In this document: one piece after another, positions 7,661 to 60,565 of the stretch
Layout: each line of letters starts with the position of its first letter
How positions within the stretch are numbered: position 1 is the stretch's first letter
Origin: Rhizobium lentis
GTDB taxonomy: Bacteria > Pseudomonadota > Alphaproteobacteria > Rhizobiales > Rhizobiaceae
NCBI RefSeq assembly: GCF_014200175.1
Contig: NZ_JACHBD010000001.1
Location: 620,001-684,000, forward strand
Length of the DNA: 64,000 nt
Direction: 5' to 3'
The notes under the pieces: generated by a model
The model's database searches: none
What the model was told of the DNA's origin: nothing
What the model saw: the letters and a program-made list of their open reading frames with translations, nothing else
Program-made: the position numbers and the translations under genes

Positions 7661-8815
7661 TTACTCCGCCGGCATGCCGTGCGGGACGCGGAAGAGGCTT
7701 CGGTCCTGCGCGCGCTTTTCCGGCCGATGGCGCGTCAGCGCCAGAATGAAGCCGGCGGTGACGCAGATCGCCACCATGGACGAACCTCCGTAGGAAATCA
7801 GCGGCAGCGTCATGCCCTTTGCCGGCAGCAGTTCGAGGTTGACGCCGATATTGATGATTGACTGGATGCCCATCTGCAGCACCAGACCGGCGACGGCAAA
7901 GCGGTTGAAGTCGTTGCGCTCACGATACGCATGCGACAGGCCGCGCAGCACCAGCACGGTGAACAGCGCCACGAGCGCCATGCAGAAGACGATGCCGAAT
8001 TCCTCGGCCGCAACCGAGAAGATGAAGTCGGTATGGGCGTCGGGGATGATCCGCTTGACGATGCCCTCTCCCGGTCCCTGGCCGAACCAGCTGCCGCGGA
8101 TGATCGCTTCGCGCGCCGTGTCGATCTGGAACGTGTCGCCCTCGCCGGTCATGAACTTGTCGATACGCAACGCCACATGCGGGAAAACGTAATAGGCGCT
8201 GAGCAAGCCGCCAGCGCCGCCGATGCCGAGCAGCATGATCCAGATCCATGGCATGCCGGCCATGAAGAACATGCCGCCCCAGACGGCCGTGGTCAGGATG
8301 GTCTGGCCGAGGTCCGGCTGCGCGACGAGAAGGGCCGCGACGATGCCGAACAGAATGATGGCGAAGAGATTGCCGGGGATCTCCGGCTGGCGCGCATGTT
8401 CGGCAAAAAGCCAGGCGCAGACCACGACGAAGGCGGGCTTCATGAATTCCGACGGCTGGATCGAAAGACCGGCGATCCAGATCCACCGCCTGCCGCCCTT
8501 GACCTCCTGCCCGACGAACAGCACCAGCACCATCATGGCAAGCGAGATGATCAATAGCAGGATCGCGGTCCGCCGCACCTGGCGCGGTGTCAGGAAGGAC
8601 AGCCCGAGCATGACGGCGATCGACGGGATCATGAAGGCCGCATGGCGCTTGACGAAGTGGAAAGGTTCCAACCCGATGCGCTCGGCAACCGCGGGAGAAG
8701 CGGCGAAGGACAGCATGAAGCCGATGCCCATCAGGAAAATGAACATTGCCAGGAAGAAGCGGTCGATGGTCCAGAACCAATCGGCCAGAGGCCCACGTTC
8801 CGCGCGGCTTACCAT
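7661..8815 (-). CDS. ftsW: SEDS-family peptidoglycan glycosyltransferase FtsW
   Basis: Polytopic inner-membrane glycan polymerase of the divisome, partner of FtsI. The 384 residues contain about ten hydrophobic segments. SEDS signatures are visible: [20 protein letters not shown] near residue 107, VAQPDLGQT near residue 165, and [12 protein letters not shown] near the C-terminus. The start lies one base from the murD stop (8817). The gene sits between murD and murG, as in most dcw clusters. Confidence 0.96.
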
Positions 8816-8816
8816 G

Positions 8817-10229
8817 TCATTTCTCTCCTGCTACAGGACCGATCAGCATCGTCATTCCGTCAAGTGCGGCCACGTGGGCGACGAAGGCATCGCCCCTGAC
8901 TTCGAAGTTCTTATACTGGTCGAAGCTTGCGCAAGCCGGGGATAACATCACGGCCGAAGCAGCCGCCTCGTCGCAATCCGCGTCGGCTGCAGCATGCGCG
9001 ACCGCGCGCTCCAGCGTGCCCGAAATTTCGTAGGGCACGGCCTCGCCCAGCGTCGCCGCGAATTCCGCCGCCGCCTCACCGATCAGATAGGCCTTGGCGA
9101 TGCGCGGAAAATGAGGGGCGAGCGTCGTGATGCCGCCGGATTTCGCCAGACCGCCAGCAATCCAGTAGATACGGTCGTAGCTCGAAAGGGCGGGTGCTGC
9201 CGCATCGGCATTGGTGGCCTTGGAATCGTTAACGAAGACGACACGGCCGCGGCGGCCGACCGGCTGCATGCGATGTTTGAGGCCGGGGAACGAGGCAAGG
9301 CCGGCACGGATGTCGTCAGCGGAAACGCCGACCGCAAGGCAGGCGGCGATGGCGGCAGCGGCATTCTGCGCATTGTGGCTGCCGCGCAGCGTCTGAATGC
9401 CGTCGAGATCGACGAAGGGCAACATTGCGCCGCCGGCGGCCTGGACGAGTTTCGTGCCCTCGGCATAGATGCCTTCGGCCACCACGTTGCGGCGGGAGAT
9501 GCGGACCACCTTGACGCCTGCCCGCTGGACGCGGTCGGCGATCAGCGCCGAGTGGCTGTCGTCGACGCCGACGACCGCGACGTCGCTGCCGGCGACCAGC
9601 CGTTCCTTGACCTCGGCATAATGCTGCATCGTGCCGTGACGGTCGAGGTGGTCGGGCGTCAGGTTGAGCAGAATGCCAGCCGAGGGGTTCAGCGTCGGCG
9701 CCAGATCGATCTGGTAGGACGAGCATTCGACGACGAAATAACGCCCCGCTTTCGGGGGGTCGAGCGTCAGCACCGCCGTGCCGATATTGCCGCCGAGCTG
9801 CGTGTCGTAGCCTGAGGATTTCAGGATATGGGCAATCAGCGCCGTCGTCGTCGACTTGCCGTTGGTGCCCGTGATGGCGATGAACGGGCAGTCTGGTGCA
9901 TGGGCGCGGCGCTCGCGCACGAAAAGCTCGACGTCGCCGACGACGTCGACGCCGGCCGCGCGCGCAAGATCAACAGTCCAGTGCGGCTTGGGATGGGTGA
10001 GCGGCACGCCGGGCGACAGCACGAAAAGCGCCTGCTGACCCCAGTCGATGCTGTGCAGGTCCTCTGTCCGGATGCCTTCGGCGGAAGCCTTGGCGACGCT
10101 GTCGGGATTGTCGTCCCAGGCAGTGACTTCGGCGCCGCCCGCAATCAGCGCCCGGGCGGTGGCGAAACCCGAGCCGCCGAGCCCGAAGAGCGCAACCTTC
10201 TTGTCCTTGAGCGTCGTGACCGGGATCAT
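8817..10229 (-). CDS. murD: UDP-MurNAc-L-alanine--D-glutamate ligase MurD
   Basis: Cytoplasmic ATP-dependent ligase adding D-glutamate to UDP-MurNAc-L-Ala. The 470-residue product has the N-terminal nucleotide-sugar loop [13 protein letters not shown], the P-loop [15 protein letters not shown] near residue 118, the central [12 protein letters not shown] segment and [13 protein letters not shown] in the C-terminal domain, all typical of MurD. The ATG at 10229 follows the mraY stop by four bases, so the genes are probably co-translated. Confidence 0.96.
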
Positions 10230-10233
10230 CGCC

Positions 10234-11334
10234 TCACCGCAGCTTCAGCGTCGAGAGGCCGAGCATGGCAAGGCCGACGGCGATGATCCAGAAGCGGATC
10301 ACCACCTGGCTTTCGGTCCAACCCTTCTTCTCGAAGTGATGGTGGATCGGCGCCATCAGGAAGACGCGCCGGCCGGTCATCTTGAAGAAGCCGACCTGGA
10401 TGATGACCGACAGCGTCTCCATGACGAAGAGGCCGCCGATGATTGCCATGACGATCTCATGCTTGGTGGCGACGGCGACGGTACCGATCGTGCCGCCAAG
10501 CGCCAGCGAGCCGGTGTCGCCCATGAAGATGGCGGCCGGCGGCGCGTTGAACCAGAGAAAGCCGAGACCGGCCCCGATGACGGCGCCGAGCACGACAGCA
10601 AGCTCGCCGGTGCCGGGCACGAAATTGATCTGCAGGTAGTTCGCAAACACCACGTTGCCGGCGAGATAGGCGATGACGCCGAAGGAGGCGGCTGCGATCA
10701 TCACAGGCACGATGGCGAGGCCGTCGAGCCCGTCCGTCAGGTTGACGGCGTTGCCGGCGCCGACGATGACGAAACCGCCGAAGACGACGAACATGATGCC
10801 GATATTGATCAGGAAGTCCTTGAAGAAGGGAAAAGCGATCGAGGAGCCGAAGGTCGAGCCGGCGGTCCCCGAGGCAAGAGCCGTGCGCATCATAAAGTAG
10901 ACGGCGATGCCGGCGATGACGAACTCGATGCCGAGGCGGGCCTTGCCGGAAAAGCCCTTATGGCTCTGCTTCGTCACCTTGAGATAATCGTCGTAGAAGC
11001 CGATCGCGCCGAAACCCAGCGTCACCAGCAGGGTGGCGACGACATAGACGTTCGAAAGGTCGGCCCAGAGGAGCGAGGCCCCAACGATGCCGGCCAGGAT
11101 CATCAGTCCGCCCATGGTCGGCGTGCCGGCCTTCTTGAAATGCGTCTGCGGCCCATCGGCGCGGATCGGCTGGCCCTTGCCTTGCCGGATGCGCAGCGAA
11201 TTGATGATCGTCGGCCCGAACAGGAAGACGATCAGTGCGGAGGTGAAAAGAGCGGCGCCCGTGCGGAAGGTGATATATCTGAACAGATTCAGAAACTTGA
11301 AATATTCCGACAGTTCGACAAGCCAGATCAGCAT
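10234..11334 (-). CDS. mraY: Phospho-MurNAc-pentapeptide transferase MraY
   Basis: Integral membrane enzyme transferring phospho-MurNAc-pentapeptide to undecaprenyl phosphate to form lipid I. The 366-residue protein has about ten membrane segments. It carries the catalytic Asp pair in GFYDDYLKV near residue 134, the aspartate motif of [31 protein letters not shown], and the cytoplasmic [12 protein letters not shown] motif near residue 330. The gap from murF is 21 bases. Confidence 0.97.
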
Positions 11335-48709: not shown

Positions 48710-49864
48710 TCAGAAGCAGTCCCTAAACAGCGCCTTGGTATTTTCGAGCGTCATGGCCACCGGGTTGCCACCCGCGCTCGGATCCTCGATCGCCATGGCC
48801 GACAATTCGTCAATGCGGTCGGGGGCGATTCCCATCGCCGTCAGCGTCTCCGGCACGCCGAGTTCGGCGCGAAGCTTCAGCACATAATCGTAGAAGCCGT
48901 CGAAACCACCTGAAATGCCGAGATAGGCGGCGGCGCGGCCGATCTTCTCCTCGATCGCCTTGCGGTTGAAGCGCAGCACCGCCGGCATGACAACCGCATT
49001 GGTCATGCCGTGATGGGTGTTGTAGACGGCGCCGATCGGGTGTGACAGCGCATGGATGGCACCGAGCCCCTTCTGGAAGGCGACCGCGCCCATGGCGGCG
49101 GCGGCCATCATATTGGCCCGGGCTTCGATATCCGTGCCTTCCCTGTAAGCGCGCGGCAGGAATTCCTTGACGAGCCGCATGCCTTCGAGCGCGATGCCAG
49201 CCGACATCGGGTGATAGAAGGGCGACGAATAGGCCTCCAGGCAATGGGCGAAAGCGTCCATGCCGGTGCCGGCCGTGATGATCTTCGGCATGCCGACCGT
49301 CAATTCCGGATCGGAGATCACAACGCCGGGCAGGAACTTCGGATGAAAGATAATCTTCTTCACGTGCGTGACGGAGTTGGTGATGACGCTGGCGCGGCCG
49401 ACTTCCGATCCGGTCCCGGCCGTCGTCGGCACCGCGACGATCGGCGCAATGCCCTCGAGGCTCGCCCGCGTCCACCAGTCGCCGATATCCTCGAAGTCCC
49501 AGACCGGCCGGGTCTGCCCGGCCATGAAGGCGACGCACTTGCCGAGGTCGAGGCCCGAGCCGCCGCCGAAGGCGACGACTCCGTCATGGCCGCCATCCTT
49601 GAAGGCCTTGACGCCGGCTTCGAGGTTCTTCTCGTTCGGGTTCGGATCGACATCGGCGAAGATCGCCCGGCCGAGTCCGGCATCTTCGAGGATGTCGAGT
49701 GCGTTCTTGGTAATCGCCATCGAAGCGAGACCGCGATCGGTGATCAGCAGCGGCTTTTTGATGCCGAGGCTCTTGCAGGCGTCGGCCAGTTCGCTGATGC
49801 GGCCCCGGCCGAGCTTGACGGACGTGGGATAGCTCCAATTTGCGGTGATGTTGCTGCTGCTCAT
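48710..49864 (-). CDS. Iron-containing alcohol dehydrogenase
   Basis: Group III metal-dependent alcohol dehydrogenase of 384 residues, NAD(P)-linked. The nucleotide loop is GVVAFGGGSGLDLGKC near residue 92, followed by PIVAVPTTAGTGSEVGRASVI. The metal ligands lie in GTGMDAFAHCLEAYSSP near residue 193 and HALSHPIGAVYNTHHGMTNAVVMP near residue 260. The start overlaps the aldehyde dehydrogenase stop (ATGA), so the two proteins are made together, as expected for consecutive oxidation of an alcohol to an acid. The substrate is inferred only from neighbours. Confidence 0.92.
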   Translation of the reverse strand: MSSSNITANWSYPTSVKLGRGRISELADACKSLGIKKPLLITDRGLASMAITKNALDILEDAGLGRAIFADVDPNPNEKNLEAGVKAFKDGGHDGVVAFGGGSGLDLGKCVAFMAGQTRPVWDFEDIGDWWTRASLEGIAPIVAVPTTAGTGSEVGRASVITNSVTHVKKIIFHPKFLPGVVISDPELTVGMPKIITAGTGMDAFAHCLEAYSSPFYHPMSAGIALEGMRLVKEFLPRAYREGTDIEARANMMAAAAMGAVAFQKGLGAIHALSHPIGAVYNTHHGMTNAVVMPAVLRFNRKAIEEKIGRAAAYLGISGGFDGFYDYVLKLRAELGVPETLTAMGIAPDRIDELSAMAIEDPSAGGNPVAMTLENTKALFRDCF

Positions 49865-51246
49865 GCTGTGACTTTCTTCAGGTGGAAGGATTTCGGACGG
49901 GTCAGATTCTGGAAGCCGATGATCGACAGCGAGCCACCCCGGCCGGTTTCCTTGACTCCGGTCCAGCAAAGCGCCGGATCGAGGTAGTCCGCGCGGTTCA
50001 TGAAAACGGTGCCGGTTTCGATCTCGCGGCCGAGACGCCCTGCGCGCTCGGCATCTTTGGTCCAGAGCGAGGCCGTCAGCCCGTATTGGCTGTCGTTCAT
50101 CAAGGCGAGTGCTTCCTCGTCGCTCTTCACCTTCATAATGCCGACCGCCGGGCCGAAGGTCTCTTCGCGCATGAAGCCCATGGAATGGTCGACATCGACG
50201 AGAATCTGAGGTGCAAGGTAGGCGCCGCCGTCATCCTCAGGGAAAAGCTTCGGATCGACCAGCGCCTTCGCACCCTTGGAAACTGCATCGGCGATCTGCT
50301 CGCGCACCACCTTGGCGAAGCGCTTGTTCGCCATCGGCCCCAGCGACGTCTCGGGATCGAGCGGATTGCCGAGCTTGTAGTTCGACACCCAGGCAACCGA
50401 CTTCTCGACGAAGGCATCGTAGAGGGATTCGTGCACATAGATGCGTTCGATGCCGCAGCAGCACTGGCCGGAATTGTAGGTGGCGCCGTCCATCAGTGTA
50501 TCGACGGCCGCCTCGAGATCGGCGTCCTCCATGACGTAACCGGGATCCTTGCCGCCGAGTTCGAGGCCAAGACCGGTGAAGGTACCGGCAGCCGCCCGCT
50601 CCATCGACCGCCCGCCTTCGACCGATCCGGTGAAGTTGACAAAATTGAAGCTGCCGGCGGCAATCAGCGCCGAGGTCGTTTCGTGATCCAGGAAGACGTT
50701 CTGGAACACGTCCTCGGGAACGCCGGCCTCGACAAAGGCCTGCACCAGCCGCTCGCCGACGAGCAGCGTCTGCGAGGCATGTTTCAGCACCACCGTATTG
50801 CCGGCCATCAGCGCCGGCGCGATCGTGTTGATCGCCGTCATATAGGGATAGTTCCACGGCGCGACGACGAAGACGACGCCATGCGCTTCACGCTCGATGC
50901 GACGCTCGAAACGATTGCTCTCCTCGACCACCAGCGGTGCCAGCGCATCGGCCGCAATCGAGGCGACATAGTTGGAACGCTCGTTGAAGCCCTTGTATTC
51001 GCCGCCGTACTTGACCGGCCGGCCCATCTGCCAGGCAAGTTCCGGCACGACGGTGTCGGACATCTCGTTCAACCGCGCGGCGCCCTTCAGCACCAGCTGC
51101 ACACGCTCTTCGAGCGGTCGCTTCGCCCAGGCTTTCTGCGCCTTGCGGGCTCGCGCCACCACATCCTTGGCGGCATCGAGCGAAAGCGCCGGACGCTCCG
51201 CGTAAACCGATCCATCGACCGGTGAAATACATTGGATCATTGCCAT
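49861..51246 (-). CDS. Aldehyde dehydrogenase
   Basis: NAD(P)-dependent aldehyde dehydrogenase of 461 residues. APWNYPYMTAINTIAPALMAGN near residue 129 is the cofactor-binding block. The general base is E229 in GLELGGKDPGYV. The catalytic cysteine is in YNSGQCCCGIERIYV (C262-C264, most likely C263), an unusual run of three cysteines. LGPMANKRF and EETFGPAVGIMKV complete the signatures. Its place between a glutamine-synthetase-like ligase and an alcohol dehydrogenase suggests a gamma-glutamylated aldehyde as substrate, like PuuC, but this is inference. Confidence 0.92.
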   Translation of the reverse strand: MAMIQCISPVDGSVYAERPALSLDAAKDVVARARKAQKAWAKRPLEERVQLVLKGAARLNEMSDTVVPELAWQMGRPVKYGGEYKGFNERSNYVASIAADALAPLVVEESNRFERRIEREAHGVVFVVAPWNYPYMTAINTIAPALMAGNTVVLKHASQTLLVGERLVQAFVEAGVPEDVFQNVFLDHETTSALIAAGSFNFVNFTGSVEGGRSMERAAAGTFTGLGLELGGKDPGYVMEDADLEAAVDTLMDGATYNSGQCCCGIERIYVHESLYDAFVEKSVAWVSNYKLGNPLDPETSLGPMANKRFAKVVREQIADAVSKGAKALVDPKLFPEDDGGAYLAPQILVDVDHSMGFMREETFGPAVGIMKVKSDEEALALMNDSQYGLTASLWTKDAERAGRLGREIETGTVFMNRADYLDPALCWTGVKETGRGGSLSIIGFQNLTRPKSFHLKKVTA

Positions 51247-51293
51247 GATCGATTTCCGTCCTCGTATTGATCAAAAATTCCGTCGAGGGCCAT

Positions 51294-51432
51294 AGCCCCT
51301 CATCCGCCTGCCGGCACCTTTTCAGCCCTTGCGGGTCGAAGGGGGATGGCCGCTACCTCTCCATGCTCAGCCCACCTCTCCGATGGCACGTCCCCTCTCC
51401 CCGCAAGCGGGGAGTTAGGGTGAGGGGCAGCT
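51294..51432. repeat. Rhizobial palindromic intergenic repeat
   Basis: The stretch begins AGCCCCTCATCC and ends GGGTGAGGGGCAGC, so its ends are complementary. It contains CTCCCCGC-AA-GCGGGGAG (51397-51414), a strong hairpin. Repeats of this wording (CCCTCATCCGCCTGCC..., CTCCCCG hairpin, GGGTGAGGGG) recur between genes in Rhizobiales. It sits within the presumed operon between the glutamine-synthetase-like gene and the aldehyde dehydrogenase gene and could set their relative expression. Confidence 0.65.
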
Positions 51433-51447
51433 AGCCGCAATCTCGTA

Positions 51448-52815
51448 CTAGGCTCTTTCGAACCCGCGCGCCACTTCCCAATCGGTGATGCGGCGGTCGT
51501 ATTCTTCCTGCTCCCACTCGGCGGCACGGGTGTAATGGTCGATCACATCGTCGCCGAAGGATTTGCGCAGCATCGCCGATTCCGTCATCGCCGTCGTCGC
51601 CGCGCGCAGCGTGCGCGGGATTTCGCGAATATCCTTGCCGCCATAGGCGTCGCCGACGAAGGGCGCTTCCAGCTCCATCTTGTTCTCGATCCCATCGATG
51701 CCGGCGGCAAGCAGCGCGGCGAAGGCGAGGTAGGGGTTGAGATCGGAGCCGCCGACGCGGCATTCGATGCGGATGCCCTTGGTTTCCTCGCCGCAGAGGC
51801 GGTAGCCGGCAGTGCGGTTGTCCTTGCTCCAGATCGCCTTGGTCGGCGCAAAGGTGCCGGCCATGAAGCGCTTGTAGGAATTGATGTAGGGCGCCAGGAA
51901 ATAGGTGATCTCGCTTGCATGGGCGAGAAGCCCGGCAACGTAATTATGCATCAGCGGCGACATGCCGTATTTGCCGGTATGGTCGAAGAAAAGCGGCTTT
52001 TCCTCCAGGCTCCAGAGCGACTGGTGGATATGCGAGGAACTGCCGGCGGCGTTGTAATTCCACTTCGCAAGGAAGGTGATGGCCTTGCCTTTCGACCAGG
52101 CGATCTCCTTGCAGCCGTTCTTGATGATCGCATGCCGGTCGGCCATGGCGAGCGCATCGGCATAGCGCACGTTGATCTCCTCCTGGCCGGCGGAAGCCTC
52201 GCCCTTGGAGTTCTCGACCGGAATGCCCGCACCCTGCAGCCCGGTGCGGATCGCCCGCATCACCTCTTCCTCCTTGGTGGTCTGGAAGATGTGATAGTCC
52301 TCGTTATAGGCGCTGGCGAGCTTGAGGTTGCGGTAGCCCGCCGTATGCGCCGCCTCGTAGCTTTGGTCGAACAGGAAGAATTCGAGCTCGGAGGCCATGT
52401 AGGCCTTCATGCCCATGTCCTCGAGGCGTTTCACCTGCTTCTTCAGGATCGCCCGCGGCGAATGGGCGACTTCCTCATGCGTGTGATGGTCGAGCACATC
52501 GCAGAGCACCAGCGCAGTTCCGTCAAGCCAGGGGATGCGCCGCAAGGTCGAAAGATCCGGCCTCATCGTATAGTCGCCGTAACCCTTTTCCCAACTCGTC
52601 GCCTTGTAGCCCGAGACGGTCTCCATCTCCATGTCGGTGGCGATCAGATAGTTGCAGCTGTGCGTCTCCTTCCAGGCACTCTCGACGAAATATTCCGCCT
52701 GGAAACGCTTGCCCATCAGCCGGCCCTGCATGTCCACCTGGCAGGCGAGAACCGTATCGATGCGCCCTTCGGCAACATCCGTCCTGAGATCGTCGATTGT
52801 GTAGCTGCTGCTCAT
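51448..52815 (-). CDS. Glutamine-synthetase-like gamma-glutamyl amine ligase
   Basis: 455-residue member of the glutamine synthetase superfamily, of the type that ligates glutamate to amines (PuuA, IpuC, GlnA4) rather than ammonia. Catalytic motifs are present: E143 and E145 in ASELEFFLFD, QEEINVRYADAL, H262-IHQS266 in SSSHIHQSLW, and DNRTAGYR plus GIRIECRVGGSDLNPYLA near the end. The adenylylation Tyr loop of GlnA is not seen, which argues against a nitrogen-assimilation role. Neighbours (permease, alcohol and aldehyde dehydrogenases, amidohydrolase) fit amine catabolism. The amine is unknown. Confidence 0.85.
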   Translation of the reverse strand: MSSSYTIDDLRTDVAEGRIDTVLACQVDMQGRLMGKRFQAEYFVESAWKETHSCNYLIATDMEMETVSGYKATSWEKGYGDYTMRPDLSTLRRIPWLDGTALVLCDVLDHHTHEEVAHSPRAILKKQVKRLEDMGMKAYMASELEFFLFDQSYEAAHTAGYRNLKLASAYNEDYHIFQTTKEEEVMRAIRTGLQGAGIPVENSKGEASAGQEEINVRYADALAMADRHAIIKNGCKEIAWSKGKAITFLAKWNYNAAGSSSHIHQSLWSLEEKPLFFDHTGKYGMSPLMHNYVAGLLAHASEITYFLAPYINSYKRFMAGTFAPTKAIWSKDNRTAGYRLCGEETKGIRIECRVGGSDLNPYLAFAALLAAGIDGIENKMELEAPFVGDAYGGKDIREIPRTLRAATTAMTESAMLRKSFGDDVIDHYTRAAEWEQEEYDRRITDWEVARGFERA

Positions 52816-52911
52816 GTTTGATCCGCCTGACATTGGAATTGAGAAGGTCGGGGCGACGAAAGAGCATGCGCTCGGCCGGATGGCGAGCCTGATGCCTTTT
52901 CGTCGAACCGG

Positions 52912-52939
52912 TGGCGGGGCCGCAGGAGCGGCCCCGCCA
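52912..52939. repeat. GC-rich perfect hairpin between permease and ligase genes
   Basis: TGGCGGGGCCGC, loop AGGA, GCGGCCCCGCCA: a 12-bp perfect stem in the 146-bp spacer between the permease stop (52962) and the ligase start (52815). There is no T run, so mRNA stabilisation or attenuation is more likely than full termination. Confidence 0.6.
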
Positions 52940-52961
52940 TTCGAGAGGGAAGTGTCGACGC

Positions 52962-54518
52962 CTAGTTTTCGCCGCTTTCGCCGACAGCCGCTTCGGCCGC
53001 CGCGATCACGGCTTGGCGCTTTGCCACTTCAGCACCGATCGGCGGCCCCTTGAAACGGCGGCTTTCGAAGCCGAACCAGACGATCGCCGTGACCACGAGG
53101 AAACCGACGGTGATATAGAGCGCCCACTCGTTCGGCGGCTGGATGCCGAGAACGAAGATCAGGATCATCGCGATGACGCTGAGCACTGCGAAGAGCTTGA
53201 ACATGCCTTCGCCGAGATTCCACGGTCCCATCTTGTCCCACTTCGCTGTCCCCCAGGCGAACAGACCGAGCGTGATCGGAATCGCGAAGGAGAAGAACAG
53301 GAAGATGACCGTGCACGAGACGACGATTGTATAGACCGGCGTATCACCGATCGACACCAGCGATGAGCCCCAGACGAACAGGACCGACAAGATCGAACCG
53401 GTCCAGATCGCGGCGACCGGCGTGCGGTACTGTGGGCTGACTTTCGACAGCGCCTTCGACGCCGGCAGGCCGCCGTCACGCGAGAAGGCGAAGATCATGC
53501 GGGAAACCGAAGTGACGGTCGCAAGGCCGCACAGCCACTGGCTGATGAGGATCGCGAGATAGAGGATGTCCTTGACGACAGGATTGACCTGGCTGTCCAT
53601 TGCCCAGAAGAACACGTTCCAGCCCTGTTTTGCTGCGTCGTCCATATTCGGCAGCATGAGGACGAAGGCGCACAGCATGATATAGCCGAACAGCGCCGAC
53701 CACAGCACCGAGGACACCATGCCGCGCGGCACCGATTCTGCGGCTTTGACCGTCTCCTCTGAGGTATGGGCCGAGGCGTCATAACCGGTGATGGTGTAGA
53801 TCGGCAGCAGCAGTCCGAGCAGGAAGACCCAGGCGCCCGAGGTGGAGGGCCAGACGTTGCCGCCGACCTCGCCGGAATAGTTGGCGAAGGTAAAAAGGCG
53901 GCCGATCTCGTATGAGGGCGCCGCAATGAGGCAGACGGCCGCCAGGGCGATCGACGTCGCAAAGATCAGATAACCGGAAAAGTCGGTCAGCTTCGCGGTC
54001 AGTCCGATGCCCATGTGGTTCACGAGCGCTTGAGCGCCGGTGATGATCACCAGGAAGACGATGCGTACCGTCGTCGTGTCGGTCAGCCCGAGATAGCTGG
54101 TGCCGAACGCGCCCATGAAGAAATAATAGGTGCCGACATTGATGGCGCCGAGCACGGTGACGAGACCGAGTAGGTTGAACCAGGCGGTCAACCAGCCGGT
54201 GAAGCGGTTGCCGAGGATTGAACCCCAGTGATAGAGCCCGCCGGCCGTCGGATAGGCCGAGCTGATCTGCGCCATGGCGATGGCGAAGACGAGCGAGATG
54301 AAGCATCCCACAGGCCAGCCGATACCGATCGCCGCTCCACCGGCGCCCGAAGTCGCCTGCGCCAGCGAGTTGATGCCGCCGGAGAGAATGCAGATGATGG
54401 AGAATGATACGGCGAAATTCGAGAACGAGCTCATTCGCCGTTCGAGTTCCTGGGCATAGCCCATCGAATGCAGGATGTGCACATCCTGCTTCTTGTCCAG
54501 TTCGGTATAGTCCGACAT
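52962..54518 (-). CDS. APC-family amino acid/amine permease
   Basis: 518-residue inner-membrane permease of the amino acid-polyamine-organocation superfamily with about twelve membrane segments. The first part, SSFSNFAVSFSIICILSGGINSLAQ near residue 30, resembles GABA/choline-type permeases. PTAGGLYHWGSIL near residue 90 and GYDASAHTSEET near 250 are superfamily motifs. GGGGGAAG precedes the ATG at 54518; a 25-residue extension is possible but lacks a ribosome site. Being beside the ligase gene, it probably imports that enzyme's amine substrate, like PuuP. Confidence 0.88.
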   Translation of the reverse strand: MSDYTELDKKQDVHILHSMGYAQELERRMSSFSNFAVSFSIICILSGGINSLAQATSGAGGAAIGIGWPVGCFISLVFAIAMAQISSAYPTAGGLYHWGSILGNRFTGWLTAWFNLLGLVTVLGAINVGTYYFFMGAFGTSYLGLTDTTTVRIVFLVIITGAQALVNHMGIGLTAKLTDFSGYLIFATSIALAAVCLIAAPSYEIGRLFTFANYSGEVGGNVWPSTSGAWVFLLGLLLPIYTITGYDASAHTSEETVKAAESVPRGMVSSVLWSALFGYIMLCAFVLMLPNMDDAAKQGWNVFFWAMDSQVNPVVKDILYLAILISQWLCGLATVTSVSRMIFAFSRDGGLPASKALSKVSPQYRTPVAAIWTGSILSVLFVWGSSLVSIGDTPVYTIVVSCTVIFLFFSFAIPITLGLFAWGTAKWDKMGPWNLGEGMFKLFAVLSVIAMILIFVLGIQPPNEWALYITVGFLVVTAIVWFGFESRRFKGPPIGAEVAKRQAVIAAAEAAVGESGEN

Positions 54519-54636
54519 GACTTCCCCCTGTTCACGACCGGCCGCGGAATTGCGGGCCGGTCCAGTGCCAATTGCCCGCGGCATTTTTGCCATGCGGACG
54601 TCCGCAGTTAAACTGCTCCCTCGGGTCTTCTTTTTA

Positions 54637-55416
54637 TCAGGCGTCCAGGCTTTGCTGGAGCAGCCCTTTTAGATAGTCGGCCATGACCCCTTGGCCGACA
54701 TCGTCTGAAATGAGGTCGTTGCGGACCTCGATCATTACATTGCGCAAGCCGTTCGAAAGCCCGTGCAGGATCAGCGTGTGGGTCACGCCATCCTCGGGTC
54801 CGTAAGGCTGGTTGCGTTCCGTCCTGTAGAGCGGCGCCTCGACGGCGGCGTCCAGCATGCGGTCGGCAAGCCGGCTGTCCTCGTCGTGCAATATGCCGAG
54901 CTCAACCGCGCGTTCGCGACCGTGATAAACCGGTGTGAAGCTGTGGATCGTCACGATGACGCTGTCCTGCCCCCTCGCCCGGCGATCGCGGATCAGCCCG
55001 CGAACGGCATCGTGAAAGGGCACGTAGAGCGCGTCGGTGCGCGCAAGCTTTTCCTCGGCGGTCAAATCCTTGTTGCCGGGAATGGCATAGATCTCGCTTT
55101 TCTCAGGCATGGCGCCGGGCGAGCTCGGCGGCCGGTTGCAATCGTAGATGAGCCGGGAGAAACGCTGATAGACAAGCGTCGCATCGAGCCCCTGCGATAT
55201 GCCGCGAGCGACCGAAAGAGCCCCGGGGTCCCAGGCAATATGGCTTAAGAGCGCTTCGCTGGGCAGGCCAAGATCGCCGAATTGGGTGGGAAGCGTATTC
55301 GAAGCATGCTCACAGACGAGAAGCACCGGGCTCCGGCCGCCGGCGCGTTCGATCCCGACGCAATCGCCGTCGGCTTCACTGAGGATTTTCGGCCGGGCCA
55401 GCACCAAAGGCGCCAC
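54637..55416 (-). CDS. N-formylglutamate amidohydrolase family protein
   Basis: Zinc-dependent amidohydrolase of up to 259 residues. VLLVCEHASNTLPTQFGDLG near residue 31 holds the first metal-ligand motif CEHASN, then YDCNRPPSSPGAMPE, VIVTIHSFTPVYHG and VMIEVRNDLI, all typical of the HutG2/FGase family. The start is uncertain: GTG at 55416 is too close to its AAGGAG, whereas TTG at 55407 or GTG at 55404 are correctly spaced. No histidine-utilisation genes are nearby, so cleavage of another glutamyl amide is plausible. It is the first gene of the minus-strand unit, divergent from the RpiR gene. Confidence 0.85.
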   Translation of the reverse strand: MAPLVLARPKILSEADGDCVGIERAGGRSPVLLVCEHASNTLPTQFGDLGLPSEALLSHIAWDPGALSVARGISQGLDATLVYQRFSRLIYDCNRPPSSPGAMPEKSEIYAIPGNKDLTAEEKLARTDALYVPFHDAVRGLIRDRRARGQDSVIVTIHSFTPVYHGRERAVELGILHDEDSRLADRMLDAAVEAPLYRTERNQPYGPEDGVTHTLILHGLSNGLRNVMIEVRNDLISDDVGQGVMADYLKGLLQQSLDA

Positions 55417-55440
55417 TCCTTAACAAATTCCTTATTAGAA

Positions 55441-55494
55441 AAGAATTCTTCAGGTTCCAGCGAGTGTCAAGCATCCTCTGAAAATTTCTTTTCA
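55441..55494. promoter_or_regulatory. Candidate RpiR operators in the divergent promoter
   Basis: AAGAATTCTT (55441-55450) is a perfect palindrome, and TGAAAA-TTTC-TTTTCA (55479-55494) is a perfect six-base inverted repeat with a four-base spacer. Both lie between the amidohydrolase and RpiR genes. Inverted repeats of the GAAA/TTTC type are common RpiR sites; binding is inferred. Confidence 0.45.
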
Positions 55495-55577
55495 TGACAG
55501 CAGTTGACATGGATTGTGACAGCGTTGTTAACTTCGATTGGGAAAATGGCGCCAGACCATCCCGGGGAGCGTATCAG

Positions 55578-56450
55578 GTGACAGTTGCGTCGAAGACGGT
55601 TTCGGACGTCATACACTCGCATTTCGGGGTGCTGACGCGCGCTGAAAAGCAACTGGCCGAAAGCCTTCTCGACAATTATCCGGTATCCGGTCTCGGCAGC
55701 ATCACCACCATCGCCGAGAATGCCGGCGTCTCGACGCCGACCGTGGTGCGCATGGTGCAGAAGCTCGGCTTCAAGGGCTATCCGGACTTTCAGGCGCATT
55801 TGCATCTGGAGGTCGAGGCGACGATATCGAACCCGATCGCCAAACATGACCGCTGGGCCCAGAACGCCCCGGGCACCCACATTCTCAACCGCTTCGCCGA
55901 TGCCATAATGGGCAATCTGCGCCAGACGCTGACCGATCTCGACACCGCGACCTTCGACAGCGTCGCCTCGCTGCTCTCCGACCGCAAGCGCGGCCTCTAT
56001 TTCGTCGGCGGCCGCATCACCGGCGCGCTTGCCGAATATTTCTTCACCCATATGCAGGTGATCCGGCCGGCGACGACGCTGCTGTCTTCCAATTCCAGCA
56101 GCTGGCCGCAATATGTCCTCAACATGAATGCCGGCGACATTCTGATCATCTTCGACATCCGCCGCTACGAGCAGGAGATGGTGAGCCTCGCCACCGCCGC
56201 CCGCAAGCGCGGCGCCGAAATTGTCGTCTTCACTGACCAATGGGGTTCACCCGCCGCCAAGCTCGCCCGCCACGCCTTCCGGGTCCGGATCGAAGCGCCC
56301 TCGGCCTGGGATTCCTCCGTCGTCACTCTTTTCATCGTCGAGGCGCTGATCGAGGCCGTTCAGAACTCCACATGGGACGAGACAAAGGAACGCATGAAGA
56401 CACTGGAGGGTCTGTTCGAGCAGACCAAACTCTTCCGCAAACCGGGTTAG
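55578..56450 (+). CDS. MurR/RpiR-family transcriptional regulator
   Basis: 290-residue regulator with an N-terminal RpiR helix-turn-helix (SITTIAENAGVSTPTVVRMVQKLGF near residue 42) and a C-terminal SIS phosphosugar-type domain (RGLYFVGGRITGALAEYFF near 140, GDILIIFDIRRYEQEMV near 200). The ATG at 55494 overlaps the putative operator and has no ribosome site, so I chose the GTG at 55578 with GGGGAG upstream. It separates the minus-strand catabolic unit from the plus-strand ABC transporter and may control both. The effector is unknown and need not be a sugar phosphate. Confidence 0.88.
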   Translation: MTVASKTVSDVIHSHFGVLTRAEKQLAESLLDNYPVSGLGSITTIAENAGVSTPTVVRMVQKLGFKGYPDFQAHLHLEVEATISNPIAKHDRWAQNAPGTHILNRFADAIMGNLRQTLTDLDTATFDSVASLLSDRKRGLYFVGGRITGALAEYFFTHMQVIRPATTLLSSNSSSWPQYVLNMNAGDILIIFDIRRYEQEMVSLATAARKRGAEIVVFTDQWGSPAAKLARHAFRVRIEAPSAWDSSVVTLFIVEALIEAVQNSTWDETKERMKTLEGLFEQTKLFRKPG

Positions 56451-56477: not shown

Positions 56478-56648
56478 ATGGCGGATTTTTGCGGAAACAA
56501 ACCGCGCTGTCGCAAATGGCACATCTGTCACAAGCGCCTGCTATTCATGCAAAATCGCCGTCACGCAGCCGTCACACAAGCTTCATGTAAGCTGATTAAC
56601 AGATCGCCAGACACTGAAAACCCGAAGGAGAACAACAGTGATCTCTAA
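56478..56648 (+). CDS. Possible small Cys-rich basic peptide, 56 residues
   Basis: A short frame with a good ribosome site (GAGGGAG, seven bases before ATG) between the RpiR gene and the ABC transporter. The peptide starts MADFCGNKPRCRKWHICHK: cysteines at 5, 11 and 17 are spaced C-x5-C-x5-C amid basic and His residues, with another Cys at 37. It overlaps the start of the solute-binding protein gene (56638) by 11 bases in another frame, as a leader peptide would. No family is recognised. It may be only the 5' leader of the transporter mRNA. Confidence 0.35.
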   Translation: MADFCGNKPRCRKWHICHKRLLFMQNRRHAAVTQASCKLINRSPDTENPKENNSDL

Positions 56649-57741
56649 CATTTCTCGACTTCTGTCGCTTTCTACTGCGATGATCGTGGCTTCGACCGCG
56701 ATTGCCGCCGCAGAACCGAGCGCTGAACTGATCGCCGCCGCCAAGAAGGAAGGCACGCTGACCACAATCGCTCTCCCGCACGACTGGTGCGGCTACGGCG
56801 AGGTCATCGCCGGCTTCAAGGCCAAGTATGGCCTCGAAGTCAACGAGCTGAACCCGGATGCCGGTTCGGGCGACGAAGTCGAAGCCATCAAGGCCAACAA
56901 GGGCAACACCGGCCCGCAGGCTCCTGATGTCATCGACGTCGGCCTCTCCTTCGGCCCCTCTGCCAAGAAAGATGGCCTGATTCAGCCTTACAAGGTCTCC
57001 ACCTGGGATTCGATCCCGGATACGGCCAAGGATCCGGAAGGCTACTGGTACGGTGACTACTACGGCGTTCTCTCGTTCCTCGTGAACAAGGATCTCGTCA
57101 AGGAATCGCCGGCCGACTGGGCCGACCTGAAGAAGAGCGACTACGCAAACAGCGTCGCGCTGGCAGGTGACCCGCGCACCGCCAACCAGGCTGTCCAGGG
57201 CGTTTATGCCGCTGGTCTTTCCGCATCGGGCGGCGACGCCGCCAAGGCAGGTGAAGAAGGCCTGAAATTCTTCGCCGAACTGAACAAGAACGGCAATTTC
57301 GTGCCTGTCGTCGGCAAGGCCGCTCCCTTCGCACAGGGCTCCACGCCGATCATCGTCGCCTGGGACTACAACGCGATGTCCTGGGGTGAAAGCCTGAAGG
57401 GCAATCCGCCGTTCGAAGTCGTCGTTCCGAAGACGGGCGTCGTCGCCGGCGTTTACGTCCAGGCAATCTCCGCCTTCGCTCCGCACCCGAACGCTGCCAA
57501 GCTCTGGATGGAATATCTCTATTCCGACGAAGGTCAGCTCGGCTGGCTGAAGGGCTATTGCCACCCGATCCGCTTCAACGATCTTGCCAAGAACAACAAG
57601 ATCCCGAAGGAACTGCTCGACAAGCTGCCGCCGGCAGCAGCCTATGAAAAGGCTGTCTTCCCGACGCTCGAAGAGCAGGCCGCCGGCAAGGAAACCATCA
57701 CCAAGAACTGGGATAGCGTCGTCGGCGCCAACGTTAAGTAA
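56638..57741 (+). CDS. ABC transporter extracellular solute-binding protein
   Basis: Periplasmic substrate receptor of 367 residues. Signal peptide: ISRLLSLSTAMIVASTAIAAA, cleaved near residue 25. The mature part starts EPSAELIAAAKKEGTLTTIALP and has the two-lobe pattern of iron/polyamine/phosphonate-type family 1 binding proteins (DVIDVGLSFGPSAKKDGLI, YYGVLSFLVNKDLV). The start codon is GTG, with AAGGAG seven bases upstream. Ligand identity is not readable from sequence. A hairpin just after the stop probably makes this protein more abundant than the permeases. Confidence 0.9.
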   Translation: MISNISRLLSLSTAMIVASTAIAAAEPSAELIAAAKKEGTLTTIALPHDWCGYGEVIAGFKAKYGLEVNELNPDAGSGDEVEAIKANKGNTGPQAPDVIDVGLSFGPSAKKDGLIQPYKVSTWDSIPDTAKDPEGYWYGDYYGVLSFLVNKDLVKESPADWADLKKSDYANSVALAGDPRTANQAVQGVYAAGLSASGGDAAKAGEEGLKFFAELNKNGNFVPVVGKAAPFAQGSTPIIVAWDYNAMSWGESLKGNPPFEVVVPKTGVVAGVYVQAISAFAPHPNAAKLWMEYLYSDEGQLGWLKGYCHPIRFNDLAKNNKIPKELLDKLPPAAAYEKAVFPTLEEQAAGKETITKNWDSVVGANVK

Positions 57742-57753
57742 ACTCCGATCCGG

Positions 57754-57784
57754 CCTCCCCGCCCTTAAAGGCGGGGAGGTTTTC
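57754..57784 (+). terminator. Intercistronic hairpin after the solute-binding protein gene
   Basis: CCTCCCCGCC, loop CTTAAA, GGCGGGGAGG followed by TTTTCTC: a strong 10-bp stem 12 bases after the stop. As the downstream permease genes belong to the same transporter, it is more likely a partial terminator or 3' end stabiliser than a full stop. Confidence 0.75.
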
Positions 57785-57812
57785 TCACCCCGATGCCCAG
57801 GATGAGCTTTTC

Positions 57813-58706
57813 ATGAGTACCGTTTCAACGCCGATGGTGAGCAGCGCCCCCTTGATCAACAAAGACCGCGTGATCGACTGGCTGGGCATTGCACCCTTCA
57901 TCATTTTTTCTCTGCTGTTCCTGATCATCCCCACGCTCTATCTCGTGGCGGGCGCATTCCTGACGCCCGAGGGCGATTTCACGCTGAAGAATATCGGCGA
58001 TCTCTTTACTCCATCGATCATGAGCGCCTACTGGATCAGCATCAAGGTCTCGGTGGCGTCCGCTCTCGGCGGCGCGCTGATCGGCTTCTTCCTCGCCTGG
58101 GCCGTCGTGCTCGGCGGCCTGCCCGCCTCGGTGCGCTCGACGCTGCTGACCTTTTCCGGCGTCGCCTCGAATTTCGCCGGCGTGCCGCTTGCCTTCGCCT
58201 TCCTGGCAACGCTCGGCCGCACCGGCCTCGTGACGGTCTTCCTGCGGGAATGGTTCGGCTTCAATCTCTACGGCACCGGCTTCAACCTGCTGTCCTTCTT
58301 CGGCCTCACCATTACCTATATGTATTTCCAGATCCCGCTGATGGTACTTATCCTGACGCCGGCGCTCGACGGCATGAAGAAGGAATGGCGCGAAGCCTCT
58401 GAGATTCTCGGCGCCACCAACCGCCAATATTGGACGATGGTCGCGCTGCCGATCCTCTGGCCGAGCCTGCTCGGCACCACGCTGCTTCTCTTTGCCAACG
58501 CCTTCGGCGCCATCGCCACCGCCTTCGCGCTGACCGGCAGCTCGCTTAACATCGTGCCGATCCTGCTCTATGCGCAGATCCGTGGCGACGTTCTGCACAA
58601 TGCCAACCTCGGTTACGCCATCGCGCTCGGCATGATCGTCATCACCGGCGTCTCCAACGTCCTTTACCTCATGCTGCGCGTGCGCGCTGAGCGGTGGCAG
58701 AAATGA
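57813..58706 (+). CDS. ABC transporter permease (first)
   Basis: 297-residue inner-membrane permease with six or so membrane segments and a cytoplasmic N-terminal tail. WLGIAPFIIFSLLFLIIPTLYLV near residue 23 begins the first span. The EAA loop that docks the ATPase is DGMKKEWREASEILGATNRQYW near residue 190. The type is that of spermidine/putrescine and iron permeases (PotB-like). The stop overlaps the next permease gene (ATGA). An extension further upstream is not supported. Confidence 0.9.
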   Translation: MSTVSTPMVSSAPLINKDRVIDWLGIAPFIIFSLLFLIIPTLYLVAGAFLTPEGDFTLKNIGDLFTPSIMSAYWISIKVSVASALGGALIGFFLAWAVVLGGLPASVRSTLLTFSGVASNFAGVPLAFAFLATLGRTGLVTVFLREWFGFNLYGTGFNLLSFFGLTITYMYFQIPLMVLILTPALDGMKKEWREASEILGATNRQYWTMVALPILWPSLLGTTLLLFANAFGAIATAFALTGSSLNIVPILLYAQIRGDVLHNANLGYAIALGMIVITGVSNVLYLMLRVRAERWQK

Positions 58707-59491
58707 AAACACAACGCCTTGGAGCCTGGATCGCCATCATTCTTGGCGCATCCTATTTTGTCATTCCGCTGATCGGCACGATCGAGTTCTCACTGCGAAT
58801 GCGCCGTGGGGAATACAGCCTCGACGCCTATGAATCGGTTTTCTCGGACGCCCAGTTCCACCAGACCTTCGGCTATTCCATGCTGATGGCGCTCCTGACC
58901 ATCATCTTCGGCATGCTGCTCGTCGTACCGACGGCCTATTGGGTGCGGCTGCGCCTGCCGCAGATGCGTCCAGTCGTCGAATTCATCACGCTGCTGCCTC
59001 TGGTCATTCCGGCAATCGTCATCGTCTTCGGCTACCTCAGAATGTACAACTCGTCGTCCTACCTGCCCTTGACGGGTTCGACAACCGGCACCAATGCCCT
59101 GCTGGTCTTCTCCTATATCACGCTGTCCCTGCCCTATATGTACCGTGCCGTCGATACCGCCATGCGCGCCATTGATGTCCGCACGCTGACGGAGGCGGCC
59201 GAAAGCCTCGGCGCGCGCTGGACGACCATCATGTTCCGCTGCATCTTCCCGAATGTGATGAGCGGCGTGCTCTCCGGCGCCTTTATCACGCTGGCGATCG
59301 TCATGGGCGAATTCACTTTCGCCGCGCTTCTCAACCGCCCGGCTTTCGGCCCGTACCTGCAGCTCGTCGGCGCCAACAAGGCCTATGAGCCTTCGGCGCT
59401 CGCCGTCATCGCCTTCTCGATCACCTGGCTCAGCATGGGCCTGCTCAATCTCGTTTCCCGCTTCGGCAAAGCCCGCCCGGCAAAGGCTTAA
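58703..59491 (+). CDS. ABC transporter permease (second)
   Basis: 262-residue inner-membrane permease, PotC-like, with about six spans. It begins MKTQRLGAWIAIILGASYFVIPLIG. The EAA loop is RTLTEAAESLGARWTTIMFRCIFP near residue 155. The start at 58703 overlaps the first permease stop, so the two are translated together and form the heterodimeric channel. The ATPase gene follows after 12 bases. Confidence 0.9.
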   Translation: MKTQRLGAWIAIILGASYFVIPLIGTIEFSLRMRRGEYSLDAYESVFSDAQFHQTFGYSMLMALLTIIFGMLLVVPTAYWVRLRLPQMRPVVEFITLLPLVIPAIVIVFGYLRMYNSSSYLPLTGSTTGTNALLVFSYITLSLPYMYRAVDTAMRAIDVRTLTEAAESLGARWTTIMFRCIFPNVMSGVLSGAFITLAIVMGEFTFAALLNRPAFGPYLQLVGANKAYEPSALAVIAFSITWLSMGLLNLVSRFGKARPAKA

Positions 59492-59503
59492 GGTAACCGG
59501 CTC

Positions 59504-60565
59504 ATGTCTTTTCTCACACTGAACAATCTCCAGAAATCCTTCGGCCCGGTTCAGGTCGTCAAGAATTTCAACATGAACATCGAGAAGGGTGAATTCATCT
59601 CCTTCCTCGGGCCGTCGGGCTGCGGCAAGACGACGGTTCTGCGGATGATCGCCGGCTTCGAAACGCCGACCGGCGGCACGCTAACCATCAATGGCAAGGA
59701 CCAGAGCGCGCTGAAGCCGAACCAGCGCAATATCGGCATGGTCTTCCAGGCCTATGCCCTGTTCCCCAACATGTCCGTGCACGACAACGTCGCCTTCGGC
59801 CTCAAGGTCGCCGGCGCTCCGAAGCCCGAGATCGACGCGCGCGTCAAGGAAATGCTCGGCCTGATCAAGCTCGATCACCTGGCCGGCCGCTATCCTTACC
59901 AGCTTTCGGGCGGCCAGCAGCAGCGCGTCGCGCTTGCCCGCGCGCTTGCCGTCAAGCCGCAGGTGCTGCTGCTCGACGAGCCCCTGTCTGCCCTCGACGC
60001 CAAGATCCGTGTGTCGCTGCGCGAGGAAATCCGCCAGATCCAGCAGCAGCTCGGCATCACCACCGTTTTCGTCACCCACGACCAGGAAGAGGCTTTGTCG
60101 ATCTCCGATCGCATCGTCGTGATGAACGCCGGCAAGGCCGACCAGATCGGCTCGCCTTTCGAAATCTACAACAAGCCGGCGACCCGCTTCGTCGCCTCCT
60201 TCGTCGGCACACTGAATCTGATCGAAGCCGAGGTCGTCGATCCCGACGCCAATCTCATCCGGATCGGCGATCAGAAGATCACCCTGAAGCAGTCGGTCGC
60301 AGCTCACAAGGCCGGAGAAACCATCTCACTGGCGCTGCGCCCGGAAGCCGGCTCGCTCTCCGACACCGCCAGAAGCGATACGGCGCTGACCGGCCAAGTC
60401 GTCTCGGCCCACTTCCTGGGCTCGGTCATCCGCACCCGCATGAATGTCGGCGGCAATGTCATCTCCTTCGACATGTTCAACAGCCCCGGCGTCACCCCAC
60501 CGCAGGCCGGTGAAACCGTGACGCTGCGTTTCATGGCGGCCGACTTGCTCGTCATCAGCGATTGA
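59504..60565 (+). CDS. ABC transporter ATP-binding protein (spermidine/putrescine or iron type)
   Basis: 353-residue ATPase energising the importer. Walker A is GPSGCGKTT near residue 36, Q-loop MVFQAYALFPNMSV, signature LSGGQQQRVALARAL near residue 132, Walker B VLLLDEPLSALD, and switch His in VFVTHDQEEAL. A C-terminal TOBE domain of about 110 residues (LIEAEVVDPDANLIRIG onwards) is typical of this subfamily. It is the last gene of the four-gene unit. The following 387 bases hold only repeats. Confidence 0.93.
   Translation: MSFLTLNNLQKSFGPVQVVKNFNMNIEKGEFISFLGPSGCGKTTVLRMIAGFETPTGGTLTINGKDQSALKPNQRNIGMVFQAYALFPNMSVHDNVAFGLKVAGAPKPEIDARVKEMLGLIKLDHLAGRYPYQLSGGQQQRVALARALAVKPQVLLLDEPLSALDAKIRVSLREEIRQIQQQLGITTVFVTHDQEEALSISDRIVVMNAGKADQIGSPFEIYNKPATRFVASFVGTLNLIEAEVVDPDANLIRIGDQKITLKQSVAAHKAGETISLALRPEAGSLSDTARSDTALTGQVVSAHFLGSVIRTRMNVGGNVISFDMFNSPGVTPPQAGETVTLRFMAADLLVISD

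Follow-up and report, generated by a model that had tools for sequence, protein, structure and literature searches.

The 64,000-nucleotide window analysed here, positions 620,001 to 684,000 of Rhizobium lentis contig NZ_JACHBD010000001.1, contains a five-gene minus-strand operon at 48.7-55.4 kb (window coordinates) that, together with a divergently transcribed RpiR-type regulator, very probably constitutes an RpiR-controlled unit for the catabolism of ethanolamine via gamma-glutamylation. In the open reading frame list the operon runs from an FGase-family amidohydrolase through an APC-superfamily permease, a glutamine synthetase (GS)-like ligase and an aldehyde dehydrogenase (ALDH) to an iron-type alcohol dehydrogenase (Fe-ADH), and the place, strand and order of these genes, as given in a preliminary description of this DNA, are borne out by that list and by Pfam matches far exceeding the family cut-offs for all five proteins. 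The RpiR gene belongs to the same unit, though it lies outside the coordinates given in that description:

54637..55416, minus strand: FGase-family amidohydrolase, proposed gamma-glutamylglycine amidohydrolase (Pfam FGase, 146 bits)
52962..54593, minus strand: APC-superfamily permease, ACT-type (TIGR00907-like), proposed ethanolamine importer (Pfam AA_permease_2, 166 bits)
51448..52833, minus strand: GS-like ligase, proposed ethanolamine gamma-glutamylase (Gln-synt_C, 341 bits)
49861..51246, minus strand: ALDH, proposed gamma-glutamylaminoacetaldehyde dehydrogenase (Aldedh, 400 bits)
48710..49864, minus strand: Fe-ADH, proposed gamma-glutamylethanolamide dehydrogenase (Fe-ADH, 158 bits; ADH_Fe_C, 142 bits)
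55494..56450, plus strand: RpiR/MurR-type regulator, divergent, proposed operon regulator (SIS, 80 bits; HTH_6, 55 bits)
55437..55494, no strand assigned: putative RpiR operator, two TGAA-N8-TTCA copies (motif counts)
56638..60565, plus strand: ABC importer (substrate-binding protein, two permeases and ATPase), 3' of RpiR, membership uncertain (profile matches)

We infer the substrate, each reaction and the regulation from relatives and the literature. In the proposed scheme the permease would import ethanolamine, the ligase would use ATP to join it to the gamma-carboxyl group of glutamate, the Fe-ADH and ALDH would take the protected hydroxyethyl group through two oxidations to gamma-glutamylglycine, releasing no free aminoacetaldehyde, and the FGase-type amidohydrolase would liberate glycine and glutamate. 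RpiR probably binds the divergent promoter at its two TGAA-N8-TTCA sites. Ethanolamine is proposed as the substrate because a published operon has the same layout, because of the importer types found in relatives and, more weakly, because of product-side neighbouring genes.

The comparison with known systems draws on three papers (PMC10132767, PMC6529630 and PMC9397018). Phaeobacter MED193 is described as carrying, in a single operon, an RpiR regulator, a gamma-glutamylglycine amidohydrolase, the EtoVWX TRAP importer, an ethanolamine gamma-glutamylase and two dehydrogenases, and by this description it matches the window in regulator type and enzyme functions; its ligase, both dehydrogenases, hydrolase and TRAP binding protein are all raised on phosphorylethanolamine, and EtoX binds ethanolamine with a Kd of 7.9 uM (PMC10132767). 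With reference to Vetting et al. 2015, the same paper points to Chromohalobacter salexigens and A. tumefaciens C58; the Chromohalobacter pathway is elsewhere termed an in silico prediction (PMC6529630). The annotated layout of Ruegeria sp. B32 holds the same families as the window, its importer being placed between the hydrolase and the ligase. Streptomyces coelicolor SCO1610-1615, the GlnA4 cluster, is likewise comparable by description, with a ligase, two dehydrogenases, a hydrolase of the formylglutamate amidohydrolase family and the same four proposed steps, of which the ligase step has been shown and the later ones are proposed, but its regulator EpuRI is not of RpiR type and no permease gene is described (PMC6529630). 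The step order and amino-alcohol substrate suggested in the preliminary description agree with the published ethanolamine layout (PMC10132767) and with the Streptomyces scheme (PMC6529630). The pathway, including the hydrolase standing in for PuuD, is already published for relatives and is not new; in Rhizobium the operon was not met among the open-licence papers listed, as judged from titles and abstract openings.

Gene content and conservation of the operon

Gene content and its conservation are observed directly. The ALDH and Fe-ADH genes directly follow the ligase gene, and although the listed Fe-ADH start (TTG, 49969) falls within the ALDH gene, the start is likely the ATG at 49864, which overlaps the ALDH stop codon as ATGA. 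The hydrolase matches PDB 2odf (Atu2144) at 334 bits, a protein near-identical to the operon FGase of an Agrobacterium locus (L136). For no operon protein did an NCBIfam model reach its own cut-off among those shown (25 of 44 for the ALDH), the best models for the Fe-ADH being 4-hydroxybutyrate dehydrogenase and GbsB choline dehydrogenase, each below cut-off.

All neighbourhoods were retrieved with the ligase alone as bait, and partners were counted when on the same strand, within about 5 kb and at least 35% identical, losses at contig edges being scored as misses. The ligase is found in 32 of 41 genomes comprising the window's own, 24 of the same genus and 16 other members of the order (E <= 1e-150), and in 30 of the 241 genomes of a class-wide draw, own included (E <= 1e-140). 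We compared two sets of loci that partly overlap: a named set made of the best 80 of 592 confirmed candidates, which leans to close relatives and in which the closest ligase, from Rhizobium bangladeshense, is 98% identical; and 40 wider neighbourhoods, namely the 29 other class matches, eight order-level matches from outside the genus and three of 23 same-genus matches, some on contigs that end early. Across the named loci the FGase gene accompanies the ligase in 65, the ALDH in 64, the Fe-ADH in 66 and all three in 55, with a divergent RpiR gene in 59. The trio thins across the class, being complete in 15 of the 40 wider neighbourhoods. The association of neighbours, for which the preliminary description had asked for a survey of gene order, extends to close and to many distant relatives. 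ParA-like and L,D-transpeptidase genes flank the operon only at named loci whose ligase is at least 78% identical, and since the enzymes stay co-located well below that level, the set appears to be held together beyond general synteny, most tightly near the window. On plasmid locus L252 of Mesorhizobium sp. 131-2-5 (7961-11284), FGase, ALDH and Fe-ADH genes occur without the ligase, adjoining sarcosine oxidase genes.

Exchange of the importer within a conserved operon

The slot between hydrolase and ligase holds an ACT-type APC permease in the window and not the EtoVWX TRAP importer of MED193; the window further differs from that operon in the ABC importer beside RpiR. The permease scores 202 bits against TIGR00907, below the cut-off of 598, and a structure search found no solved structure for it. 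Slot content varies widely among relatives: ACT-type permeases occupy it in 27 of the 80 named loci, TRAP importers in 23, EAT-type (TIGR00908-like) permeases in nine and none of these in 21, and the 40 wider neighbourhoods hold TRAP importers in 13, ACT-type permeases in four and EAT-type in two. The EAT and ACT families belong to the same superfamily (each matches PF13520), and TRAP importers are unrelated to them. Two slot permeases (L069 and L078) reach 359 and 374 bits against TIGR00908, the 'ethanolamine permease' model with a cut-off of 381.75, and the TRAP binding protein of a Shimia locus (L177) matches PDB 4uab/4xf5 at 635 bits over most of its length, an entry pair which we take to be the C. 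salexigens ethanolamine-binding protein. The Agrobacterium form (L131, L136 and L137) shares with the window both the enzymes and the flanks (ABC genes, ParA and L,D-transpeptidase), but its slot carries an EAT-type permease, and likewise no TRAP importer, in place of the ACT type.

A quick tree of 60 ligase rows, with 17 of 56 inner branches unresolved, requires at least eight changes of slot type, and sister rows differ in importer in well-supported cases (L123 EAT versus L133 APC, SH-aLRT 99; L124 TRAP versus L135 APC, 97). Within the genus, too, the permease is locally replaced: in genome G017 (L279) it is 66% identical to that of the window where the ten other operon and flank proteins found are 93-98% identical, and in G009 (L280) the figures are 78% and, for eleven other proteins, 94-98%. 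In the same comparison no permease outlier of this kind appears at two other same-genus loci (L281 and L282). Because relatives that share the enzymes carry different importers, we treat the importer as a variable part of the operon.

The window permease is found (E <= 1e-60) in 26 of the 41 genomes and, compared by eye, adjoins the ligase in 25 of them, the 26th (G003) being an incomplete assembly without a ligase match. Five other class genomes carry more distant permease relatives (48-60% identical), each of them close to another GS-like gene (30-33% identical); an ALDH of 54-59% identity accompanies them at four of these loci and an Fe-ADH at two. A second operon type can be seen at L274, L276, L277 and L278, consisting of an ACT permease, an ALDH (with an Fe-ADH in two) and a GS-like ligase about 32% identical to that of the window. 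On gene neighbourhood, ACT permeases thus appear tied to gamma-glutamylating ligases in general. Taken together, we think it reasonably likely that the importer position is a swap slot, in which TRAP, EAT and ACT importers have repeatedly taken one another's place while the regulator, the enzymes and the chromosomal flanks were kept, and that the Rhizobium ACT permease represents a further family of bacterial ethanolamine importers. Such an exchange was not met in the papers listed, as judged from titles, abstract openings and passages.

Substrate, ligase residues and alternative readings

Product-side neighbours offer a further line of evidence for ethanolamine, weaker than those from the literature and the importer slot. 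Among 15 plasmid regions viewed, chosen by eye among 30 listed of 257 records, genes of the beta-hydroxyaspartate cycle (bhc) stand beside the operon on three plasmids (Aminobacter NyZ550, A. aminovorans and Paracoccus pantotrophus), those for serine hydroxymethyltransferase (glyA), L-serine ammonia-lyase, purU and folD adjoin it in Salipiger, and malate synthase G adjoins it in SC52; the sarcosine oxidase region is that of the ligase-less Mesorhizobium 131-2-5 locus. The bhc-bearing loci comprise L245 (3499-13702), L250 and L246, on conjugative or mobilizable plasmids, and L139, from a Rhizobiaceae metagenome-assembled genome; the cases look like one mobile island, resembling a mobile ethanolamine-to-oxaloacetate set in which no permease separates hydrolase from ligase. 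A link between bhc genes and ethanolamine was not apparent in the papers listed, as judged from titles and abstract openings. Elsewhere, operons at L259 (11765-16017) and L254 (14939-19807) lie near genes for GlpR-type regulators, an inositol-monophosphatase-family protein, a sulfatase-like hydrolase or a carbohydrate kinase, neighbours that could mean a glycerophospho-ethanolamine source.

Several observations weigh against ethanolamine catabolism by this route. Glycine- or C2-type neighbours occur in just six of the 15 plasmid regions, the bhc cases share 76-87% nucleotide identity, and the complete bhc set appears just once (L139) among 120 other neighbourhoods, where the Salipiger glycine genes never occur; Pot-type polyamine importer genes stand beside the Marinovum operon and protocatechuate genes beside that of P. 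alcaliphilus. The gene set is looser in the 40 wider neighbourhoods (FGase 17, ALDH 23, Fe-ADH 32, RpiR 17), six of which (L079, L080, L087, L090, L099 and L100) have none of the three partner enzymes, and L075 and L144, the latter from Kiloniella spongiae, have RpiR, FGase, TRAP and ligase genes with neither ALDH nor Fe-ADH detectable alongside. At L275 a PuuB-looking oxidoreductase, identified by eye, lies between the permease and the GS-like gene, a resemblance to the polyamine type from which it follows that permease family does not fix the substrate and that ACT permeases are not ethanolamine-specific. Finally, the NCBIfam model best matching the Fe-ADH, 4-hydroxybutyrate dehydrogenase, is for a different substrate, albeit with a score below its cut-off, and the ligase has A263 in place of the glutamate residue N264.

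The same chemistry might have another small amino alcohol as its main substrate, such as L-alaninol or 1-amino-2-propanol, giving alanine or another derivative. The enzyme set is compatible with any small amino alcohol, and PDB 4xf5, which has the same sequence as 4uab, presumably holds 2-amino-1-propanol; we nevertheless consider this reading unlikely, as the bhc, glyA and malate synthase G neighbours of a few relatives fit a C2 product, and as both the ethanolamine binding and the phosphorylethanolamine induction reported for MED193 (PMC10132767) speak for ethanolamine.

Degradation of a polyamine such as putrescine by a variant of the Puu pathway, the other option in the preliminary description, finds little support and appears very unlikely. 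The E. coli Puu pathway also protects an amine by gamma-glutamylation and proceeds through an ALDH step and amide hydrolysis, so that a GS-like ligase and an ALDH are common to both, and the Marinovum Pot-type genes would fit as well. However, the ligase reaches only 196 bits against the gamma-glutamylputrescine synthetase model NF045547, far under its cut-off of 650, and where Puu employs an FAD oxidase (PuuB) and a class I amidotransferase-type hydrolase (PuuD), the window has an Fe-ADH, for which the Puu route has no role, and an FGase. Neither a PuuB-type oxidase nor a PuuD-type hydrolase is among the operon genes, the rest of the genome not having been searched for them, and we rejected the polyamine reading on this absence and the low synthetase score. 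Two other known systems differ more plainly. The Pseudomonas Ipu route, a gamma-glutamyl amide pathway via an amino alcohol derivative, starts by alkylamine oxygenation, and no oxygenase is among the window operon genes. The Eut system shares the proposed substrate but uses different chemistry, the EutBC ammonia-lyase, and EutB (PF06751) is absent from the window's genome in a search whose E. coli control was positive.

For the ligase, which has full-length matches to PDB 11zs (668 bits) and 5dm3 (635 bits), residues were compared by alignment to the genome's own GlnA. All six metal ligands are kept (E149, E151, E212, E219, H268 and E357), as are G265, R321, R339, R344, R359 and H271; four glutamate residues out of five are retained, and Y179 could align with either D179 or Y180. 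The changes fall in the ammonium site, with F328 in place of E327 and S74 in place of D50, the placement of D50 being alignment-dependent. Six aligned relatives all have F at the E327 position and E, E, D, P, P and P around D50, and Streptomyces GlnA4, like the window ligase, has a phenylalanine (F331) at the place of E327, together with E at that of N264 (PMC6529630). This pattern, as read from the alignments, fits an amine larger than ammonia. The preliminary description held that the ligase lacks the adenylylation loop, which needs qualification: compared with the genome's own GlnA the loop is indeed shortened, but the tyrosine at the aligned position Y397 stays. The retained metal ligands and tyrosine 397, together with most of the residues for glutamate and ATP, would also suit an auxiliary glutamine synthetase flanked by unrelated dehydrogenases, a reading we regard as scarcely credible given F at E327 and S at D50, scores far below the GlnA (260 bits, cut-off 429) and GSIII (234 bits, cut-off 470) models, the presence elsewhere in the genome of its own GlnA and GSIII, both exceeding their cut-offs, and neighbours conserved with the ligase. 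A plain glutamine synthetase was rejected on the same residues and model scores.

The probable RpiR operator, the adjoining ABC importer and implications

The gaps between the RpiR and FGase genes contain a recurrent element. TGAA-N8-TTCA occurs exactly in 43 of 60 such gaps (the window and 59 named loci), spacings of 6, 7, 9 or 10 in place of N8 occur in none of the 60, and shuffled gaps would be expected to yield 0.5 motif-bearing cases, with a largest value of three, a comparison that overstates independence as the motif was spotted by eye in the same, related sequences in which it was later counted. By importer type the exact motif is present in 25 of 27 ACT-APC gaps, seven of eight EAT, six of 20 TRAP and all five without importer, and eight of the 60 gaps (two ACT-APC and six TRAP) have no site even with one mismatch. 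The window has two sites 42 bases apart, at 55437-55452 (one mismatch) and 55479-55494 (exact), which we regard, from motif counts, as the probable RpiR operator. The better control is a genome-wide count: in the 6.59 Mb genome searched, the fuller operator pattern TGAARANNNNTTTTCA is found at a single place, namely this promoter, and from this uniqueness the RpiR regulon may be this promoter alone. The exact site and the listed RpiR start (55494) overlap, and translation may begin at ATG 55509 instead.

The ABC importer 3' of RpiR scores as 2-aminoethylphosphonate-transporter-like, below cut-offs. Its substrate-binding protein gene is present in 34 of the 80 named loci and in three of the 40 wider neighbourhoods, all three from the same genus, and in Phyllobacterium (L180 and L183) the ABC genes sit at the opposite end of the operon. 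Six other genomes of the class draw carry the binding protein, none of them among the ligase matches (E <= 1e-140), and in three order-level genomes where both are present (G028, G034 and G039) the two lie on different contigs. Those of its neighbours that were listed elsewhere (an inositol-phosphatase family protein, a class V aminotransferase, a HAD hydrolase and a PehA-like hydrolase) give no firm hint of a substrate; at L237, which was scored, and at L238 the gene lies near one for a PehA-like sulfatase/phosphoesterase. Linkage between importer and operon is seen in close relatives, and the importer's membership in the operon is uncertain.

Root-associated bacteria are likely to encounter ethanolamine, a head group of phospholipids, and the locus indicates that a Rhizobium without EutB carries a gamma-glutamyl route for it. 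The importer differs from that of the published Phaeobacter form, and exchange of the slot is the less usual part of the finding: a series of natural importer exchanges within a single operon could help to deduce the cargo of ACT-type permeases. The locus also offers candidate names for genes to which none of the NCBIfam models shown applies at its cut-off, the operator motif offers a testable regulatory site, and an assimilation path for the glycine carbon is suggested by glyoxylate-cycle genes that adjoin the operon in a few relatives.

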